Below, piece by piece: positions 1,800 through 9,293 of a DNA stretch of 9,293 nucleotides (position 1 is its first letter; each line of letters opens with the position of its first letter). Below the pieces are notes generated by a model. The model was not told where the DNA came from. It was given only the letters and a program-made list of their open reading frames with translations, and made no database searches. Origin of the DNA: an uncultured Bacteroidota bacterium (GTDB lineage Bacteria > Bacteroidota > Bacteroidia > Chitinophagales > Chitinophagaceae); NCBI GenBank assembly GCA_946479055.1, contig CAMLEX010000149.1:1-9293 (forward strand), written 5' to 3'. Both the position numbers and the translations under genes were made by a program.

Positions 1800-1830
1800 T
1801 GCTTTTTAGTGAGACCAATCTCAAAAAGCA
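1800..1830. repeat. Imperfect hairpin at the left end of the cassette-like array
   Basis: TGCTTTTT (1800-1807) and AAAAAGCA (1823-1830) are perfect complements, continued by GAGA/TCTC around a CCAA loop with three unpaired bases on the left arm. It sits downstream of the YcxB-like gene on the - strand, so it could act as a transcription stop or be the remaining half of a degraded cassette recombination site. There is no immediate T-run, so neither reading is secure. Confidence 0.45.
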
Positions 1831-1854
1831 TGTCACACAACGTCAGGACCGTTT

Positions 1855-1864
1855 GTTAGGCGAC
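1855..1864. repeat. Cassette boundary inverted repeat, left copy (GTTAGGCGAC)
   Basis: This decamer is the exact reverse complement of 2361-2370. GTTAGGC fits the integron core GTTRRRY. The stop codon of the YcxB-like gene (1856-1858) lies inside it, as often seen at the 3' end of integron cassettes. Confidence 0.7.
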
Positions 1865-2347
1865 GTTTAGTTTGCTTTGAACATAGCTGCGAAAGGTCTG
1901 TTCCTCTGTTTTGTCAATAAAATACCTTTTGGGGATCACTATCGCCATGATAGTATCAAGATATAGGTAAAATGCCTTGTTACTTTCTTCCAAGGATTTA
2001 ATTGCATGCCATTGAAACAGGCCTTCTGAATCCTTGTCCTTAAAGGAGAGATGGTCATCCAAAAATTCATAGACCTTCTTTCCGAGGAATGAACCATCGT
2101 CTTTAGGGATTGATTTAGATTTAGCAAGGCTGTAATACATAATAATAGAAAAGATAGCAATGTAGAGAAGTGACGAAATTATTAATGTGCCTAGATTCAA
2201 GGATGATTTTTCCTTGTTTAGTGAATACTGAAGAATCAAAAGACCCGCCAAACCGATTAGTAGCGTTCTAACAAGGTTTTTCTTCTTGAAATGATAGAGA
2301 TTAAAGTTCAAATAATCCTGTCGTGTGATCTCAATTTCTAGCTTCAT
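1856..2347 (-). CDS. YcxB-like membrane protein
   Basis: The 163-aa product has a short polar N-terminus (MKLEIEITRQDYLNFNLYHF), two hydrophobic segments at about residues 27-45 and 54-73 that should span the membrane, and a soluble C-terminal domain with FQWHAIKSLEESNKAFYLYL and IPKRYF. This order is that of the YcxB-like family (two TM helices, then a C-terminal domain with W..I.....E and IPkr.F). The biochemical function of the family is not known. The gene fills a 516-bp unit bounded by inverted 10-mers and its stop codon lies within the left core sequence. A promoter-like element (2384-2413) lies about 37 nt upstream in the adjoining repeat. Start at 2347 is the first ATG after the boundary. 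Confidence 0.78.
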   Translation of the reverse strand: MKLEIEITRQDYLNFNLYHFKKKNLVRTLLIGLAGLLILQYSLNKEKSSLNLGTLIISSLLYIAIFSIIMYYSLAKSKSIPKDDGSFLGKKVYEFLDDHLSFKDKDSEGLFQWHAIKSLEESNKAFYLYLDTIMAIVIPKRYFIDKTEEQTFRSYVQSKLNVA

Positions 2348-2360
2348 AATGTTTTTTAAT

Positions 2361-2370
2361 GTCGCCTAAC
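2361..2370. repeat. Cassette boundary inverted repeat, right copy (GTCGCCTAAC)
   Basis: Exact reverse complement of 1855-1864; GCCTAAC fits the integron core RYYYAAC. The dispersed repeat copy 1 begins at its last three bases. Confidence 0.7.
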
Positions 2371-2589
2371 GATTGTATTTCTGCTAAAATACACCGCTTA
2401 CAATAGGAAACAATTTTTTCAACTTCCTCATTTTACGCTACGAAGAAATAAGCAATAATTCAGATTGACGCCGGATCCACGCCACACACAAGCCAACGCT
2501 GTGAGACATCGGCTTAGGAAATCTTCGTAGCGGGCACCCGGGAGTTAAGCAGTTTGCCCTGCCAAGTTGCATAAAGCATGTTATACGCC
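2364..2589. repeat. Structured intercassette spacer (attC-like site, long) with repeat copy 1
   Basis: The spacer runs from GCCTAAC (2364-2370) to GTTATACGCC (2580-2589). Its left part (2368-2441) is copy 1 of the dispersed repeat. CGCTACGAAGA (2436-2446) and TCTTCGTAGCG (2522-2532) form an 11-bp perfect inverted repeat around a 75-nt loop, and GGGCA/TGCCC (2532-2536, 2555-2559) forms a smaller hairpin. At over 220 bp it is long for an integron attC (commonly about 60-150 bp), so it may be composite. Unlike copies 2 and 3 the right part of the repeat is replaced by unrelated sequence. Confidence 0.5.
2384..2413 (-). promoter_or_regulatory. Promoter-like element in repeat copy 1
   Basis: On the - strand, TTG then 19 nt then TATTTTAG, close to the Bacteroidota TTG-N19-TAnnTTTG pattern, about 37 nt upstream of the YcxB-like ATG. 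Sequence and spacing are kept in repeat copies 2 and 3. Confidence 0.35.
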
Positions 2590-2595
2590 GTGCGG

Positions 2596-3340
2596 TTATG
2601 AATTGTATACGTCTTTAAACTTTAGTATATCCCATACTTTCGACTCATTGTCATTGGGGAAACCGCATTCAGGTACAAAATCATCAGCTTCTTTAAATGT
2701 TCCAAAAATTCTGTCCCACCAGGTAATGTCGCCAAAATTATATTTATGAACATCTAATTGATGATGTATCGAATGATGTTCAGGTCTTTGAAGAAAGTAT
2801 CCCAACCACTTAGGAGTAGAAATATTGGAATGGTAGAAGTATTCGCCAGTTGCTCCAAATAATGATGTCCAGGCACCCGCCAGCGCTGTGCCGCCTAAAA
2901 CATAATAAATTAAAAAGCCCGTTATGATTGAATCCGCAATAATTTCAATTGGGTGTTTATAAAACGAAGTTAAAAGCTCAATCCTTTTGGGGCTATGATG
3001 CATTTGATGGAATATTAGCCAGAAACCATTGGCATGCCTTAGCCTATGCCACCAATAAAAAACGAAGGTACCTATGACCCAGTAAACTAAGCCTTCTACA
3101 ATAGGATTACTCCAACTGCCAACATGAAATAATGATTGATCTCTGAAGTATTTATTCCAGGTGATTCCACTTAAGCCTATTAAAAGAAACTGTACAAGAT
3201 TAATCGCAATTGGAAGCCGGCAATTCCCTGCCCGGGAATTTTCTTTCTAAAACAAGGAAAAGTAAAGTGCTAATGCAGATTAGTGAGCCAGGTAACAATT
3301 GTTCAAAGTAAGGTCTGAAGTATTCTATTATTAGATTCAT
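2596..3340 (-). pseudogene. Sterol desaturase / fatty acid hydroxylase family protein, frameshifted
   Basis: The reading begins at ATG 3338-3340 (MNLIIEYFRPYFEQL) and runs in one frame through a LERKFPGRELP segment to a stop at 3200-3202. From about 3246 to 2596 the neighbouring frame continues the family (AINLVQFLLIGLSGITW, then HRLRHANGFW, HQMHHSPKR, HHSIHHQLD), so a +1 shift or small deletion lies between about 3200 and 3249. The three histidine clusters (HRLRH, HQMHH, HSIHH) are the di-iron ligands of this membrane hydroxylase superfamily and are intact, as is the tail with WWDRIFGTF. Family members oxidise lipid or sterol C-H bonds in the membrane; the substrate is unknown. The stretch expected after RELP (in relatives, something like NSKGWY) is missing, which argues for a real deletion rather than a single base-call error. 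The gene lies in its own spacer-bounded unit. Confidence 0.82.
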
Positions 3341-3559
3341 AGATTATAATGCTTTTTCAAAGGCGGTATATAGCACAATATACTCCACGCCTGGTACATT
3401 TTAAACTTGACTGACAGTGGTCATTTGTGCCTGAATACAAATAATAAATAAAATACCAGTAGCTGTATGAGGTAGTCTAAAGTTGTTCGGTCGGTGAAAA
3501 AACACCAATCTCGGCGTTCGGCGTGTTATTTTTTGGGGAAAACAACGAGGGCAAAAAAA
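3341..3559. other. Intercassette spacer with hairpin at 3362-3391
   Basis: No gene is seen. GGCG-GTATAT (3362-3371) pairs with ATATAC...CGCC (3378-3383, 3388-3391), giving a hairpin with a 6-nt loop and a 4-nt bulge. The outer GGCGGTATATAG resembles the reverse complement of GTTATACGCC at 2580-2589, so it may be the right boundary of the desaturase cassette. Near the other end GGTG/CACC (around 3490-3502) forms a small hairpin and GTGTTA (3523-3528) matches TAACAC at the far side of the next gene. Confidence 0.4.
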
Positions 3560-3994
3560 TTATTTTAAGCCTTTAATTCTTATTTGTCTTACCACCCAAA
3601 GCCAGATAATTGCCATAAGGATGAGTATTATTAATGACGGTTTCAATAATGAAAATATATTTTCATTATTAAAAAAAGTAATTATTAGCATATAAACGCT
3701 AATTATAGCAGTAGTTATTAGTGAATATTTTAGGCCTACTTTTATATTGTTTTTATTGAATACAAGGATTTCTTTCCCAGCTTTTCTTCCCAGAAGATAT
3801 GCTGAAATAAAAAGAATAAAGTAAGATAGAAGTACCTCTAATCGTAAGTGATCGCTAATGTAAAATAAAATTCCATTGGCAAAATCACCTTTTGTTTCCT
3901 GCATCATCGAATATAATTCTGTAATACATGTAACAACTAGCATTGCCTTAATTGTCTGTCTGCTGCCTATTTTCTCTGAAATTTGAGTATTCAT
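3560..3994 (-). CDS. Small integral membrane protein, unrecognised
   Basis: I do not recognise the family. The 144-aa product has a polar N-terminus (MNTQISEKIGSRQTIKAM), a weak hydrophobic segment near residues 15-30, and clear membrane segments near residues 52-68, 90-107 and 115-135, ending in a positively charged tail (RQIRIKGLK). This gives three or four predicted spans with a basic inside end. No catalytic motif is visible. It is very AT-rich. It lies between GTGTTA (left) and TAACAC (right) and is separated from the SMI1/KNR4 gene by only 49 nt. Start at 3994 is the first ATG after the boundary. Confidence 0.65.
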   Translation of the reverse strand: MNTQISEKIGSRQTIKAMLVVTCITELYSMMQETKGDFANGILFYISDHLRLEVLLSYFILFISAYLLGRKAGKEILVFNKNNIKVGLKYSLITTAIISVYMLIITFFNNENIFSLLKPSLIILILMAIIWLWVVRQIRIKGLK

Positions 3995-4003
3995 ATAATT
4001 ACC

Positions 4004-4049
4004 GCTAACACATGGGTATTTATGCCAAAGCAGAAGTCAATAGTTAACC
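4004..4049. repeat. Short cassette junction (GCTAAC ... GTTAACC)
   Basis: The 49-nt gap between two cassette genes starts with GCTAAC (4004-4009) and ends with GTTAACC (4043-4049), the latter containing the stop codon of the SMI1/KNR4 gene. No long stem is visible inside, so if it is a recombination site it is minimal or degraded. Confidence 0.3.
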
Positions 4050-4772
4050 AAATAGTTTTGAGAAGAAACCTTTCTTCTCTGTCTTTTCAATACCCCAAAT
4101 TAACTCGTCATTACATTTTATTGCTTTCTCTAAGTTAGGGCCAAACTTGCCCCAGGCAAAACCTGATTTATTTGGTTTGTCTCTCAAGTCTGCAACGACA
4201 AAATTGTCTCTAAGTGTCAAAGCAAAATTTTTAAGTACAGGGTCCTTGGAATTTCTTGCTTCAGTGATTTCGATAAATCCATTGTTGATTTTCCAAATGT
4301 CAAAGACTGTCTTTTCGTGAATGATATTGAGATTTGAGTTTTCCATGTTCTTACCGTACTCATCAATATGTTGTATGAACTGTGAAAGATTGTCTGAATG
4401 TTTTACAATAACTGCCGGATCGTGGCAAACATAAAATACATTTCCCCAACTACCTTTTGTGTCAACATCTAAAATCCAAAAATTACCAAAGCCATCATGT
4501 CCAAGTTGAACAGAGTAGGGGAAGATATTGTCAAAGCCAAATTGTCCAACACCATCAAATGTTATTTCGTCAATGCCGTAAAATTCAAAGCCTTTTGTAA
4601 ACTTTAAAAGTTCTCGTACATCATTTGGAATTTCTCCTGTTGGAAGCCCTTTTGCAAGATTGTCAATTTCATTATCTGTCAAACCTGGCAGCAATTCAAT
4701 TTTATATTCGTCTCCGTCTTCGGAAACATAAACCTCATTTAAGAGTGACTTTAATTGTTCAGTGATTGTCAT
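4044..4772 (-). CDS. SMI1/KNR4 family (SUKH superfamily) protein
   Basis: The 242-aa product carries a SUKH-type domain over about residues 20-130: LPGLTDNEIDNLAKGLPTGEIPNDVRELLKFTKGFEF is the typical helix with the LL-F--G-E pattern, followed by IFPYSVQLGHDGFGNFWILDV, GSWGNVFYVCHDPAVI and LSQFIQHID. SUKH proteins are often immunity proteins that neutralise polymorphic toxins, and bacterial members also occur alone. The C-terminal 100 residues (EKTVFDIWKINNGFIEITEARNS to KKGFFSKLFG) look like a second domain that I do not recognise. No toxin gene lies next to it; the neighbours are unrelated cassettes, so it would be an orphan immunity protein or have another role. Its TAA lies within GTTAACC. 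The ATG at 4772 sits shortly after the boundary GTTGTAGGC (4795-4803, - strand). Confidence 0.82.
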   Translation of the reverse strand: MTITEQLKSLLNEVYVSEDGDEYKIELLPGLTDNEIDNLAKGLPTGEIPNDVRELLKFTKGFEFYGIDEITFDGVGQFGFDNIFPYSVQLGHDGFGNFWILDVDTKGSWGNVFYVCHDPAVIVKHSDNLSQFIQHIDEYGKNMENSNLNIIHEKTVFDIWKINNGFIEITEARNSKDPVLKNFALTLRDNFVVADLRDKPNKSGFAWGKFGPNLEKAIKCNDELIWGIEKTEKKGFFSKLFG

Positions 4773-4794
4773 ATAGTGGGATGTCGGTATGCTT

Positions 4795-4933
4795 GCCTAC
4801 AACGGTTCACAGCTTGCTGTCAGTAGCGGCATTCTGTGTTCCGTCAGCTTAAATTTAGTATTAAAGATGAATTGTGTTCTATTGTTTAGCATTTATTCTT
4901 CAGCCGCTATTGCAGCAAGCTGATGTTAGCCGC
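4795..4933. repeat. attC-like hairpin site with one extrahelical base
   Basis: CAGCTTGCTG (4810-4819) pairs with CAGCAAGCTG (4913-4922). After one unpaired base (T4820) the stem goes on with CAG/TTG (4821-4823, 4910-4912; one G-T) and TAGCGGC/GCCGCTA (4824-4830, 4903-4909), so 20 pairs in all. The outer ends are GCCTACAAC (4795-4803) and GTTAGCCGC (4925-4933). Size (139 bp), stem layout and AAC...GTT ends are those of integron attC sites, although the cores are not exact matches to RYYYAAC/GTTRRRY. The central 72 nt are AT-rich. Confidence 0.6.
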
Positions 4934-5560
4934 TTTCACTGTTTCGGTAAACTTTTCTGCAACGATGTAAGGTTGCCCAAAGTTGTAGTTGTCTGGGCTA
5001 ATGTCAGGATTTCCAAATAACAAAACGGAATGTTCATTCGTTACGTCAGTAGTCTCGACAATTGCGAAAGTCAACTTGTGTTTGTCGAAAACTGGCTTGT
5101 AGCTTTCCAATAGCCTTGCTGGTATTTCAATAGTTGCACCTTCTGTCGTTGAAAGTCGGTCTGGAACGCTATTAAACAACCAATGAAAGTCAACCCAGTT
5201 ACCGCAAGCCTTATCATGCACAATGAACAAGTCACCCAAGAGTTCTGCAACGTTCACATCAGAACCTTTTAATGTCAAGAAATGAGAACTCTCGTAATTC
5301 CAAAGTACTGGATGGTCACTATATAGATTGATGCGATTATAAGGTCGCTTAAATTCGTGTAGTCTATTCGAGGTTGTATAAGCAATCCCTTCGCAATAAA
5401 TTTCACAATGAAACTTCGTAGTTTCTTCCACGGAATACTGTATGTCGAAAATGAGCCTTAAGTCGAACTCCCGTTGTCTTGCAACGACTTCTTTGACAGC
5501 AATGTGTCCGTCTTGAAGGAACTCTTCGGAATTGGTAATCTCAATTAGTCTCTCTAACAT
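4907..5560 (-). CDS. Hypothetical 217-aa soluble protein, unrecognised
   Basis: I do not recognise a family. The product is soluble and acidic, with no signal peptide or membrane span. An N-terminal helix (MLERLIEITNSEEFLQDG) is followed by a beta-rich region (KEVVARQREFDLRLIFDIQY, FHCEIYCEGIAYTT), then HPVLWNYES, GNWVDFHWLFNSVPDRL, a strand segment with LTFAIVETTD, and SVLLFGNPDISPDNYNFGQPYI. The last eight residues (AANISLLQ) and the TAG are encoded by the right arm of the attC-like hairpin 4795-4933, so the coding region runs into the recombination-like site. Start at 5560 is an ATG shortly after the boundary GTTCGGCCGC (5581-5590, - strand). A promoter-like element lies about 44 nt upstream in repeat copy 2. 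Confidence 0.68.
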   Translation of the reverse strand: MLERLIEITNSEEFLQDGHIAVKEVVARQREFDLRLIFDIQYSVEETTKFHCEIYCEGIAYTTSNRLHEFKRPYNRINLYSDHPVLWNYESSHFLTLKGSDVNVAELLGDLFIVHDKACGNWVDFHWLFNSVPDRLSTTEGATIEIPARLLESYKPVFDKHKLTFAIVETTDVTNEHSVLLFGNPDISPDNYNFGQPYIVAEKFTETVKAANISLLQ

Positions 5561-5603
5561 TTAGGAGGTTTGTTTTGATTGCGGCCGAACGATTGTATTT
5601 CCG

Positions 5604-5633
5604 CTAAAATACGCTACTTCCAATAGCAAACAA
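5604..5633 (-). promoter_or_regulatory. Promoter-like element in repeat copy 2
   Basis: TTG-N19-TATTTTAG on the - strand, about 44 nt upstream of the ATG at 5560. It has the same layout as in copies 1 and 3. Confidence 0.35.
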
Positions 5634-5673
5634 TTTTTCCAACTTCCTCTTTTTATACAACTTAACAAAAAAA

Positions 5674-5696
5674 GCGCTACTGTGAGTGAGTAGCGC
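5674..5696 (-). terminator. Intrinsic terminator-like hairpin inside repeat copy 2
   Basis: GCGCTACT/AGTAGCGC with a 7-nt loop; read on the - strand the stem is followed directly by seven T (5667-5673). It would stop transcription coming from the DUF4238 gene before the next cassette gene. Confidence 0.6.
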
Positions 5697-5728
5697 AAAT
5701 ACAAATAAGCTTAATGTTAAACTCCGTA

Positions 5729-5777
5729 CAACTAAGAGTTCATCGTTGGCCCTTCGGGCCCGACGAGCTCTTAGTTG
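5729..5777. repeat. Strong 49-nt hairpin next to the DUF4238 cassette boundary
   Basis: CAACTAAGAG (5729-5738) pairs with CTCTTAGTTG (5768-5777). The stem goes on with TTC/GAG (one G-T), a mismatch, TCG/CGA, a two-base bulge (5746-5747) and GGCCC/GGGCC closed by a TTC loop, about 21 pairs in all. The right end merges with the cassette boundary GTTGTGTGCC (5777-5786). No T-run follows on the - strand, so a site for a recombinase or protein is at least as likely as a terminator. Confidence 0.7.
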
Positions 5778-5791
5778 TTGTGTGCCATTTT
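5777..5791. repeat. 15-bp inverted repeat bounding the DUF4238 unit, left copy
   Basis: GTTGTGTGCCATTTT is the exact reverse complement of 6667-6681. The stop codon (5790-5792) overlaps its right end. Confidence 0.75.
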
Positions 5792-6665
5792 ACTCCTCAA
5801 AGGAAAAGGGTTCCATTTCTTGATTAAAAATAAAATAGTCAGACAAATGCGAACCAATCATGTGGCAAATTTTCTCGTGGGTAAGTTCATCAATGTCGTT
5901 AACCTTGTTTATTTTGAGATTTCTCAGTGGGTTGGAATTTTTTACAGATTTTGGATGATAAATGTATGCACAATAATCAGGAGAAAGAGGGAAATAGATT
6001 TCGCTTTCAACTGGGATTGTCCACTGGTAATCATCATTAAGCTCGTTTGGATCCTCTTGGGGATCAATAATAGCTGGGTTGTCGCTAGTGAACCATCCTC
6101 TATTCCCATAATCTTTCAGAATTACAAAATTGAAATTCCTAAAAACGCTTACGAAAAAATTCATGATGTGGCCTGTGACATAATTTAAATGGGTTTCTTC
6201 AGGTATGTTGCTAAGAGAGATATTTATAATTGGCAACTCTTCGGGTTTGTACATTGTAATTTCTCTCAAAAAGGCGTCCCTTAATATTGGTGTGTCTAAG
6301 TAACGCTGAAACAACTCACGATAGGGTTTGGCTCTACACATGAGATTCGGAATATAGTGGCATAAAATATCCCTGTGTCGTGGTGTAAGTTGCTTTTGCC
6401 GATTAATTGTATTTAAAACCTTTTGATATTCATTTTCAATTATAACACTTTTATGTTCAAAGTGCCGTCTTTCTTCAATTGACTCAAAAAATGGTAAGTC
6501 AAAAACATTTGTCTCCTTTGTGAAGTTTTCAATTAATACATAGTCCGTGAATTTTTTTGATTTGTCCCACACTGATATATACCACTTCTCATCTTTAAAA
6601 TAGCCGAACTGCCGTAGGTAAACTTGAGAAACTCTATGTTGTCCTTGATATTTCGGATGCTTCAT
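5790..6665 (-). CDS. DUF4238 family protein
   Basis: The 291-aa product begins MKHPKYQGQHRVSQVYLRQF, the N-terminal signature of DUF4238 (K-QHxVxxxYLRxF), and has GWFTSDNPAII at residues 190-200, the conserved central motif FxTSDNPV. Between them lies a long helical region (residues 60-135) with a short HRDILCHYIPNLMCR segment. The biochemical function of the family is not known. A longer reading from a TTG at 6681-6683 is possible but would begin inside the boundary repeat; the ATG at 6663-6665 starts directly with the family motif, so I use it. The gene fills its unit between the 15-bp inverted repeats. A promoter-like element lies about 30 nt upstream (6695-6724), and a terminator-like hairpin lies downstream (5674-5696). 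Confidence 0.85.
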   Translation of the reverse strand: MKHPKYQGQHRVSQVYLRQFGYFKDEKWYISVWDKSKKFTDYVLIENFTKETNVFDLPFFESIEERRHFEHKSVIIENEYQKVLNTINRQKQLTPRHRDILCHYIPNLMCRAKPYRELFQRYLDTPILRDAFLREITMYKPEELPIINISLSNIPEETHLNYVTGHIMNFFVSVFRNFNFVILKDYGNRGWFTSDNPAIIDPQEDPNELNDDYQWTIPVESEIYFPLSPDYCAYIYHPKSVKNSNPLRNLKINKVNDIDELTHEKICHMIGSHLSDYFIFNQEMEPFSFEE

Positions 6666-6666
6666 A

Positions 6667-6681
6667 AAAATGGCACACAAC
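6667..6681. repeat. 15-bp inverted repeat bounding the DUF4238 unit, right copy
   Basis: AAAATGGCACACAAC is the exact reverse complement of 5777-5791. It ends in AAC, where repeat copy 3 begins. Confidence 0.75.
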
Positions 6682-6842
6682 AATTGTATTACCGCTAAAA
6701 TACGCTACTTCCTATACCAAACAATTTTTTAACTTCCTCTTTTTATGCTACTTAACAAATAAAACGCTACTGTAGCAGAGAAGCATAAATACAATTCAGG
6801 ACAAATAATTTTCAGTAAGGTCTTTATTGCTGTGTTATGTCC
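6679..6842. repeat. Dispersed repeat copy 3, possible attC-like site
   Basis: Starts at AAC 6679-6681 and aligns with copy 2 through AAATACAA (6787-6794); the ends TTGTATT...AAATACAA are again inverted. It continues with GGACAAATAATTTT, which recurs in copy 4, and GGACA (6799-6803) is complementary to TGTCC (6838-6842). It ends at GTTATGT (6834-6840), just before the GH3 remnant. Confidence 0.62.
6695..6724 (-). promoter_or_regulatory. Promoter-like element in repeat copy 3
   Basis: TTG-N19-TATTTTAG on the - strand, about 30 nt upstream of the DUF4238 ATG. Confidence 0.35.
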
Positions 6843-6848
6843 CGTTTA

Positions 6849-7076
6849 TTATTTTACCTCAAACACTTCCCTCAATCTTATATCCATACTGGAACTCCCG
6901 ATCATAACCCGGAATTTACCGGGTTCAATCACTTCTTTCATATTCACATCCAGCATCGTCAGCATTTCCGGAGTAATAATAATTGTATATCTTTTTCTTC
7001 ACGTGGCTCAAGGCTTATTCTTTGAAAACCTTTTTAATTCTTTGACAGGTCTTGCTACAGAAGCCAGTTCACGTAC
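6849..7076 (-). pseudogene. GH3 beta-glucosidase C-terminal remnant (fibronectin III-like domain), frameshifted
   Basis: Read on the - strand in three pieces, the region gives LASVARPVKELK, then GFQRISLEPREEKDI, then ITPEMLTMLDVNMKEVIEPG, KFRVMIGSSSMDIRLREVFE and the stop at 6849-6851. This is the order of the Fn3-like C-terminal domain of family 3 glycoside hydrolases (ASVxRPVKELKGF, LxPGE, TPEMLxxxD, VEPGxFxVMIGxSSxDI). There are two shifts: one in an A-run near 7030-7036 and one near 6974-6985. All catalytic parts are missing. It is therefore a dead 3' fragment of a gene that in Bacteroidota often sits in polysaccharide loci. The upstream end is cut at a junction with the group II intron-like sequence. 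Confidence 0.78.
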
Positions 7077-9143: not shown

Positions 9144-9293
9144 AACGATTGTATTTGTACTAAAATACGCCACTTCCAATACCAACGCAATTTTTCCAAC
9201 TTATTCTTTTGAGGCTACTTAGCTAAAAACTCGCCATTATCCCTGAGTAGCAAACTACAACACAGTGGACAGATAATTTAAGCGGGTCTTGAT
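9144..9293. repeat. Dispersed repeat copy 4, cut by the window edge
   Basis: AAC at 9144-9146 is followed by GATTGTATTT and CTAAAATACGCCACTTCCAA, the same order as copies 1-3, and by GGACAGATAATTT and GGTCTT, shared with copy 3. The TATTTTAG element is kept, with 20 instead of 19 nt to TTG. The gene to its left is on the opposite strand, so here it does not serve a cassette gene. Confidence 0.65.

Follow-up and report, generated by a model that had tools for sequence, protein, structure and literature searches.

The probable remains of a sedentary chromosomal integron in a Chitinophagaceae-like bacterium

In this work, we have analysed a stretch of 9,293 nucleotides from an uncultured Bacteroidota bacterium (contig CAMLEX010000149.1 of assembly GCA_946479055.1; hereafter the window), and we conclude that it very probably preserves what is left of a sedentary chromosomal integron, with a Chitinophagaceae-like bacterium as host. 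We read it as a cassette array without an integrase, probably a relic, because it contains one attC site scoring 89.5 bits and four copies of an attI-like repeat, and because the same architecture occurs with a complete recombinase gene in relatives. The original prediction, made from the letters alone, had also been of a Bacteroidota cassette array lacking an integrase, possibly a relic, and these three lines of evidence uphold it. Direct support extends to the architecture, the site families, the covariation of the attC stem, the co-occurrence with a recombinase, a triplicated cassette with GTT edges in one relative, and the absence of the I2 segment, an IntI-specific stretch, from the recombinases.

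The attI and attC sites

The minus strand of the window carries four copies of a repeat of about 118 nt, with ends near 2368, 5588, 6680 and 9144, that did not figure in the original prediction. Every copy closes with ..AATACAAYYG/TT, and the letters past the GTT vary. To recognize the repeat we used an nhmmer profile of six recombinase-adjacent sites from relatives, with the window excluded; it matched the window four times, each time on the minus strand, with E values from 5e-22 to 3e-10, and its sole match in 12 control loci had an E value of 2.7. Copy C (5588..5721; E 5.1e-22) is the best preserved, copy B lies at 6680..6832 (E 1.7e-13), copy A (9144..9290; E 4.6e-11) has a G/TT end followed by GTTACCTGCA, and copy D (2368..2447; E 2.6e-10) retains only the 3' two thirds (model positions 38-118), its G/TT end preceding the YcxB gene. 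As copy A reaches 9290, the right boundary of 6840 that had been proposed for the array is too short.

In six loci of relatives (L061, L113, L114, L047, L049 and L043) the repeat begins at most a few bases from the stop codon of a tyrosine recombinase gene, which may be complete or a remnant, and it is therefore best read as attI. When 75 nt of the recombinase 3' end were added to the profile, copy A rose from 36.4 to 38.9 bits (E 4e-12) and copy B from 44.2 to 54.5 bits (E 6.7e-17), while copy C stayed at about 72 bits (E 2.7e-22) and copy D dropped; thus, a short piece of the recombinase gene survives in A and B (about 9253-9290 and 6795-6832, respectively). A loose pattern of the repeat end was found in 36 of the 394 genomes of the family of G001 (a Flavihumibacter genome; the family is Chitinophagaceae), at 51 places compared with 27 for a reversed control, so that only recurring contexts were trusted; 20 of the places were taken as regions of up to 20 kb. 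With one mismatch allowed, at least one attI-like end was present in 11 of 12 genomes and there were often several (7 in G302, 6 in G343), and integron starts of this type seem to be dispersed and decaying. In one region of L047 (17838-19183), two Y1-transposase-like genes, judged by eye to be like the transposases associated with repetitive extragenic palindromes (REP/RAYT), are found close to attI copies; most of the recombinase is gone from this array.

For the attC sites, we collected 73 candidates, 66 of which fell into two length classes, leaving 62 after removal of near-duplicates (19 short and 43 long). Alignment A1 holds 18 of the 19 short sites, the one left out being an attI, and the covariance model R1 was built from these 18 attC sites of relatives, again with the window excluded. 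RNAalifold pairs the AAC and GTT boxes of A1 and, beyond a spacer, a 17-bp stem. The stem positions of A1 are paired in 92.9% of cells and have a covariation score of 0.607; shuffles have a mean of 0.182, with 0 of 500 attaining the observed score, and slid structures do not exceed 0.144. The L stem of the 18 sites shows no conserved one-base bulge in the RNAalifold consensus; duplex folds of 61 sites contained 52 1x1 loops and 49 one-base bulges. The features of attC that are present, in the relatives and in the window site recognized by R1, are R'' (..AAC), R' (GTT..), a covarying imperfect palindrome and an unpaired central spacer.

In the window, R1 identifies a complete attC at 4795..4933 (minus strand), between the 217-aa (amino acid) and SMI1 cassettes, at 89.5 bits (E 9.1e-22) and with a G/TT junction at 4803; the other strand scores 32.2 bits. 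Among controls, the best scores were 21.7 bits in 238,549 bases and 35.3 bits in one whole genome of another phylum. Rejection of all spacers by covariance models had been named in advance as an outcome that would speak against a cassette array, and one spacer was accepted. The accompanying suggestion that the spacers fold into long stems applies to this spacer and, by its inverted repeat, to a hairpin at 5728-5778, but not to the two attI copies that were folded, which showed no excess folding.

Arrays and recombinases of relatives

Searching with the L061 recombinase, we found matches at E<=1e-40 in 70 of 195 family genomes, often at contig ends, and same-strand arrays of single-gene units lie downstream of such genes. 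In relatives the recombinase gene adjoins attI, which separates it from the array. In L103, L102, L129, L117 and others, many units have boxes anchored at GTT, often GTTRGCNGCA, that recur as ..AAC with 9-10 bp exact, and the distance from the R'' of one unit to the R' of the next is mostly about 115-125 or 180-190 nt, although control anchors indicate that this chaining of boxes also collects chance pairs. When 31 loci were searched, 23 had both a recombinase and attC, with the nearest attC at most 2.1 kb away in 22 of them and 6.3 kb away in L175. The recombinase points to the array in 21 of the 23 and away from it, as canonical intI does, in L170 and L171; in these two (4637-5866 and 10247-12429, respectively) recombinase and array are divergent, giving two layouts in one family.

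The array of L103 has 20 same-strand attC matches behind its recombinase and contains one 475-bp unit three times, at 9604-10078, 11915-12389 (100% identical) and 18565-19042 (about 95%). The neighbours of the copies differ and the homology stops at, or a few bases from, GTT, so far as the sequence can tell what would be expected of the footprint of single-cassette movement. Furthermore, of 17 loci with an attI-like end and no full recombinase that were searched with R1, seven (L043, L044, L047, L049, L052, L053 and L057) have same-strand attC downstream and repeat the architecture of the window. A candidate superintegron is G436:C8, where at least 12 same-strand attC matches are spread over 85 kb of one contig (9573-95153; positions 1-40000 were read as L179 and L180).

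These arrays also bear on a quite different explanation, namely that the repeats are dispersed hairpins, either of REP/RAYT type or terminators, that separate accessory genes with no relation to one another, and that there are no cassettes. The two Y1-transposase-like open reading frames of L047, which were named by eye, would suit such an origin. However, the repeats adjoin recombinase genes, their G/TT end is the point at which inverted repeats specific to each unit start, and arrays such as L103 line up attC matches on one strand behind a recombinase; the explanation is already contradicted by the array data, and we give it hardly any credence.

The recombinases themselves are 345-407 aa long (20 aligned rows, 10 from array loci and 10 database relatives) and begin with an N-terminal domain of some 88 residues, which is followed by a SAM-like core-binding domain and the catalytic domain; PF00589 and PF13495 (the tyrosine recombinase catalytic and SAM_4 core-binding domains) are present in all 35 members of alignment A2. 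An IntI-like SP[LFI]D C-terminus occurs in 17 of the 20 rows, but the IntI-specific segment of about 40 residues (the I2 region) is missing from all 20, which have 21-24 residues there compared with 63 in 15 of 15 IntI and 23-27 in four of four Xer proteins. Similarly, hhalign shows a gap at the I2 region against IntI1. The curated TIGR02249 cut-off (265 bits) was not reached by seven family proteins (156.6-189.1 bits), nothing exceeded it in the 15 genomes searched, and array recombinases match that model in two pieces, around model positions 180-240. The N-terminal domain weakly resembles the fork-reading folds of HARP/XPB. Across 26 loci (25 in alignment A3) it shows a W-S-x-T-H-K-C-W-like motif, with one W invariant in A3 and the other W and the S above 90%, and a weak DUF5710 match.

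The recombinase beside the intact arrays is thus not canonical IntI, and we judge the finding to be an integron by its layout and sites but not an IntI integron by its recombinase. The possibility of a different recombination system had been raised from the sequence, and it is upheld in part, by the array-side recombinase. If the window were instead an ordinary cluster of attC sites without an integrase (CALIN), it would consist of canonical IntI cassettes, deposited or moved in trans by a standard IntI. Such clusters are common, Bacteroidota are among the phyla with integrons in the lists of PMC8618304 and PMC9668308, and the R'/R'' and G/TT layout is canonical. The TIGR02249 results in 15 of 15 genomes, the two-piece matches of the array recombinases and the membership of the window attI copies in a non-IntI family all count against this explanation, and we consider it improbable.

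In the large genome searches, strict filters were used and no more than 11 to 22 candidates were scored in each genome, so that counts per genome are lower bounds. R1 found attC in 125 of the 195 family genomes (E<=1e-3) and, at E<=1e-6, in 133 of 296 genomes of the phylum and in three of 149 genomes of another phylum, to which G927, a Clostridiales metagenome-assembled genome, belongs. In one of these three control genomes, four same-strand attC-like matches (51-57 bits) lie at 411576-439608 of G1051:C1 (L187, L190 and L191) and may be a real integron. Within the family, attC was present in 67 of 70 genomes with a recombinase (E<=1e-40) compared with 58 of the 125 others (Fisher P 1e-13).

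Several observations weigh against our interpretation. Those 58 of 125 family genomes have attC without a recombinase at E<=1e-40, and across the phylum a recombinase (E<=1e-60) was detected in 49 of 296 genomes compared with the 133 that have attC; as attC is commoner than the recombinase, the surplus has to come from more distant recombinases or a large number of relics. Conversely, G265, G333 and G379 have a recombinase but no attC by R1. In A1, pairs changed on both sides number 14, which 100 of 500 shuffles match. In the window, only one spacer contains a full attC by R1, and the remaining matches are below 11 bits, so the other spacers must be truncated, replaced by attI, or of another type. 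Finally, when nine window proteins (six cassette units and three backbone genes) were compared by tblastn with the loci of relatives, no cassette relative was found in an intact array except for FA_hydroxylase in L093 (E 2.3e-5).

How might these arrays work? In intact relatives, the recombinase beside attI would insert and excise cassettes by cutting at G/TT and taking a folded attC strand as its partner. This would parallel IntI, except that I2 is absent, and the N-terminal domain may help to read the fold. The recombinase of this family would then be a cassette recombinase using folded single strands. It might instead act in the fashion of Xer on double-stranded palindromic sites, the attC hairpins being by-products of symmetry. 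Long palindromes with covarying stems, the strand asymmetry (89.5 versus 32.2 bits) and the variable loops fit folded strands better, without amounting to proof, and we regard Xer-like action as unlikely, although it is the more serious of the competing accounts. Extending the folded-strand mechanism, we tentatively suggest that Bacteroidota may hold a widespread second kind of integron, in which an integrase devoid of I2 acts on folded attC by means of an N-terminal domain that is HARP/XPB-like and recognizes branched or folded DNA, representing either a pre-I2 state or an independent invention.

Cassettes and backbone of the window

Open reading frames and a Pfam search place six accessory genes in the window, all on the minus strand and spanning 1856-6683, and all six (YcxB, FA_hydroxylase, 144 aa, SMI1_KNR4, 217 aa and DUF4238) are where they had been predicted. 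They are the YcxB gene (1856..2347; PF14317, E 3e-11), FA_hydroxylase (2596..3341; PF04116, E 6e-19 on the 3' part), a 144-aa gene with nothing over the Pfam cut-off (3560..3994), SMI1/KNR4 (SUKH-1; 4044..4772; PF09346, E 3.1e-9), a 217-aa gene with no Pfam match (4907..5560) and DUF4238 (5790..6665; PF14022, E 3e-20 on the open reading frame 5790-6683). For DUF4238 we chose the ATG at 6665; the list of open reading frames has a TTG at 6683, inside R'. Each had been proposed to be a single-gene unit; the frame of FA_hydroxylase is broken near 3220, so that this unit is not an intact gene.

Several units had been described as bounded by inverted repeats, and two of the six have exact ones: 10 bp for YcxB (R' 2361-2370, R'' 1855-1864) and 15 bp for DUF4238 (R' GTTGTGTGCCATTTT at 6667..6681, beginning at the attI-B G/TT junction, and R'' at 5777..5791). 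The 217-aa unit (R' 5581-5590, R'' 4925-4933) has a near match, GTTCGGCCGC / GCGGCTAAC, and a clean pair is missing in three of the six. Compared with 1000 Markov-1 resamples of 1800-6850, GTT-anchored repeats are weak by themselves at 9 bp (three seen, mean 1.3, P 0.14) and 10 bp (two seen, mean 0.39, P 0.057). The signal improves at 12 bp (P 0.028), and at 15 bp, which 0 of 1000 resamples reached, it is strong. Nevertheless, the case for the 10-bp repeat is solid because both exact repeats start at the G/TT end of a copy of the four-copy repeat.

In addition to the one full attC, we recognize, by eye, a hairpin as a second candidate and two half sites. The hairpin (5723..5776, minus strand) follows DUF4238, is attC-like in position and tentative, and has an 18-nt, 89% inverted repeat (5728-5745/5761-5778); R1 leaves it unrecognized, at 7.2 and 5.0 bits on the two strands. 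It is a strong hairpin with a GGGCCCGAAGGGCC centre, lying 3' of the DUF4238 R'' box and unlike the R1 type of attC, and it is perhaps a second attC class. One half site (4001..4033, minus strand), missed by R1, is the 3' arm of a truncated attC with the R' box GTTAGCGGT of the 144-aa cassette, reading ..GGCATAAATACCCATGT-GTTAGCGGT; the intact L113 site reads GCATAAATACCCATTCC-GTTAGCGGC. The other (2556..2589, minus strand) is R'' and the 5' arm of the FA_hydroxylase attC, GGCGTATAAC-ATGCTTTATGCAACTTGGCAGGGC, comparable to the ATGCAAGTTGGGC arms of L117 and L096; a matching 3' arm was not seen in the window.

From right to left, the order is attI-A, an R' box and backbone; attI-B, the DUF4238 cassette and the hairpin; attI-C, the 217-aa cassette, the full attC and SMI1; the truncated attC 3' arm, the 144-aa unit and the broken FA_hydroxylase with its attC 5' arm; and attI-D with YcxB. 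Only the 3'-end scraps beside attI would remain of the window's own recombinase, and each attI copy would mark a G/TT end at which one cassette of a single gene (R'-gene-R''-attC arm) starts or once started. Cassettes lying downstream would be joined by attC, one whole and the others truncated or replaced by attI. The simplest explanation for the presence of more than one attI is that several integrons started here and have decayed, or else that recombination at sites near attI produced the copies. Unless a related recombinase from another place in the cell works on it in trans, the array can probably no longer be mobilized.

On the right, the window holds genes for DoxX, a glyoxalase and an AraC-type regulator. 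The AraC/glyoxalase pair also occurs in L001 (Flavihumibacter petaseus), L003 (Solitalea longa), L004, L006, L008 (where DoxX adjoins it) and L009, and more widely spaced in L005 and L011; on this recurrence we take it for backbone. On the left are a GH32 gene, from the Pfam matches of relatives of its protein, and a weak monooxygenase match. Among relatives with an organism name, the closest to the window GH32 protein is from a Chitinophagaceae bacterium (62%).

Comparison with known systems

Like the sedentary chromosomal integrons of Vibrio, Xanthomonas and Treponema, the family described here has a recombinase gene, an adjacent attI, long same-strand arrays of single genes, R'/R'' boxes with GTT/AAC, and palindromic attC sites of variable length. 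It differs from them in lacking the IntI-specific segment, in an attI of about 118 nt, in its Bacteroidota hosts, in attC sites that fall into classes of about 118 and 183 nt, measured between boxes, and in a recombinase directed toward the array in 21 of 23 loci. The window resembles a CALIN, for which PMC9024848 requires at least two attC sites and no integrase, in having cassettes and attC without a complete integrase gene. However, only one attC is certain, and the window keeps four copies of attI and integrase 3' scraps; thus, it looks like several decayed integron starts and not a bare attC cluster. Replacement of attC by a piece of attI, or its reduction to R'', is known from class 1 and 2 mobile integrons, as PMC12901181 describes, and the window shows the same replacement or cut-down as these delta-attI-type and truncated-attC cassettes, although its attI pieces are much longer, the attI sequence is unrelated and there are no drug-resistance cassettes.

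An important consequence concerns the I2 segment. According to PMC7790495, I2 is not known from any other protein, IntI1 from which it has been deleted no longer functions, intermediates are lacking, and single-strand recombination is tied to I2. The extra domain likewise distinguishes IntI in PMC9024848, which states that earlier work on Bacteroidetes found integrases without cassettes only and that there is now one complete integron, in Salinibacter. In PMC2426708, intI genes were chosen by the extra domain or patch. We expect that searches requiring that domain would miss arrays such as these as complete integrons. The attC arrays in 133 of 296 genomes of the phylum, accompanied in part by an I2-less integrase, would change the statements cited here from PMC7790495 and PMC9024848, and would point to a large unmined reservoir of cassettes. 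They would also give a natural system for direct tests of the origin of single-strand recombination.

Finally, the recombinases resemble archaeal XerA (4a8e and 5hxy) in their catalytic fold, in giving their best sequence matches in the PDB there, and in the absence of an I2-like insertion from the alignment. They are set apart from XerA by the additional N-terminal domain of about 88 aa, by a C-terminus that is mostly SP[LFI]D, and by the cassette arrays that neighbour them.

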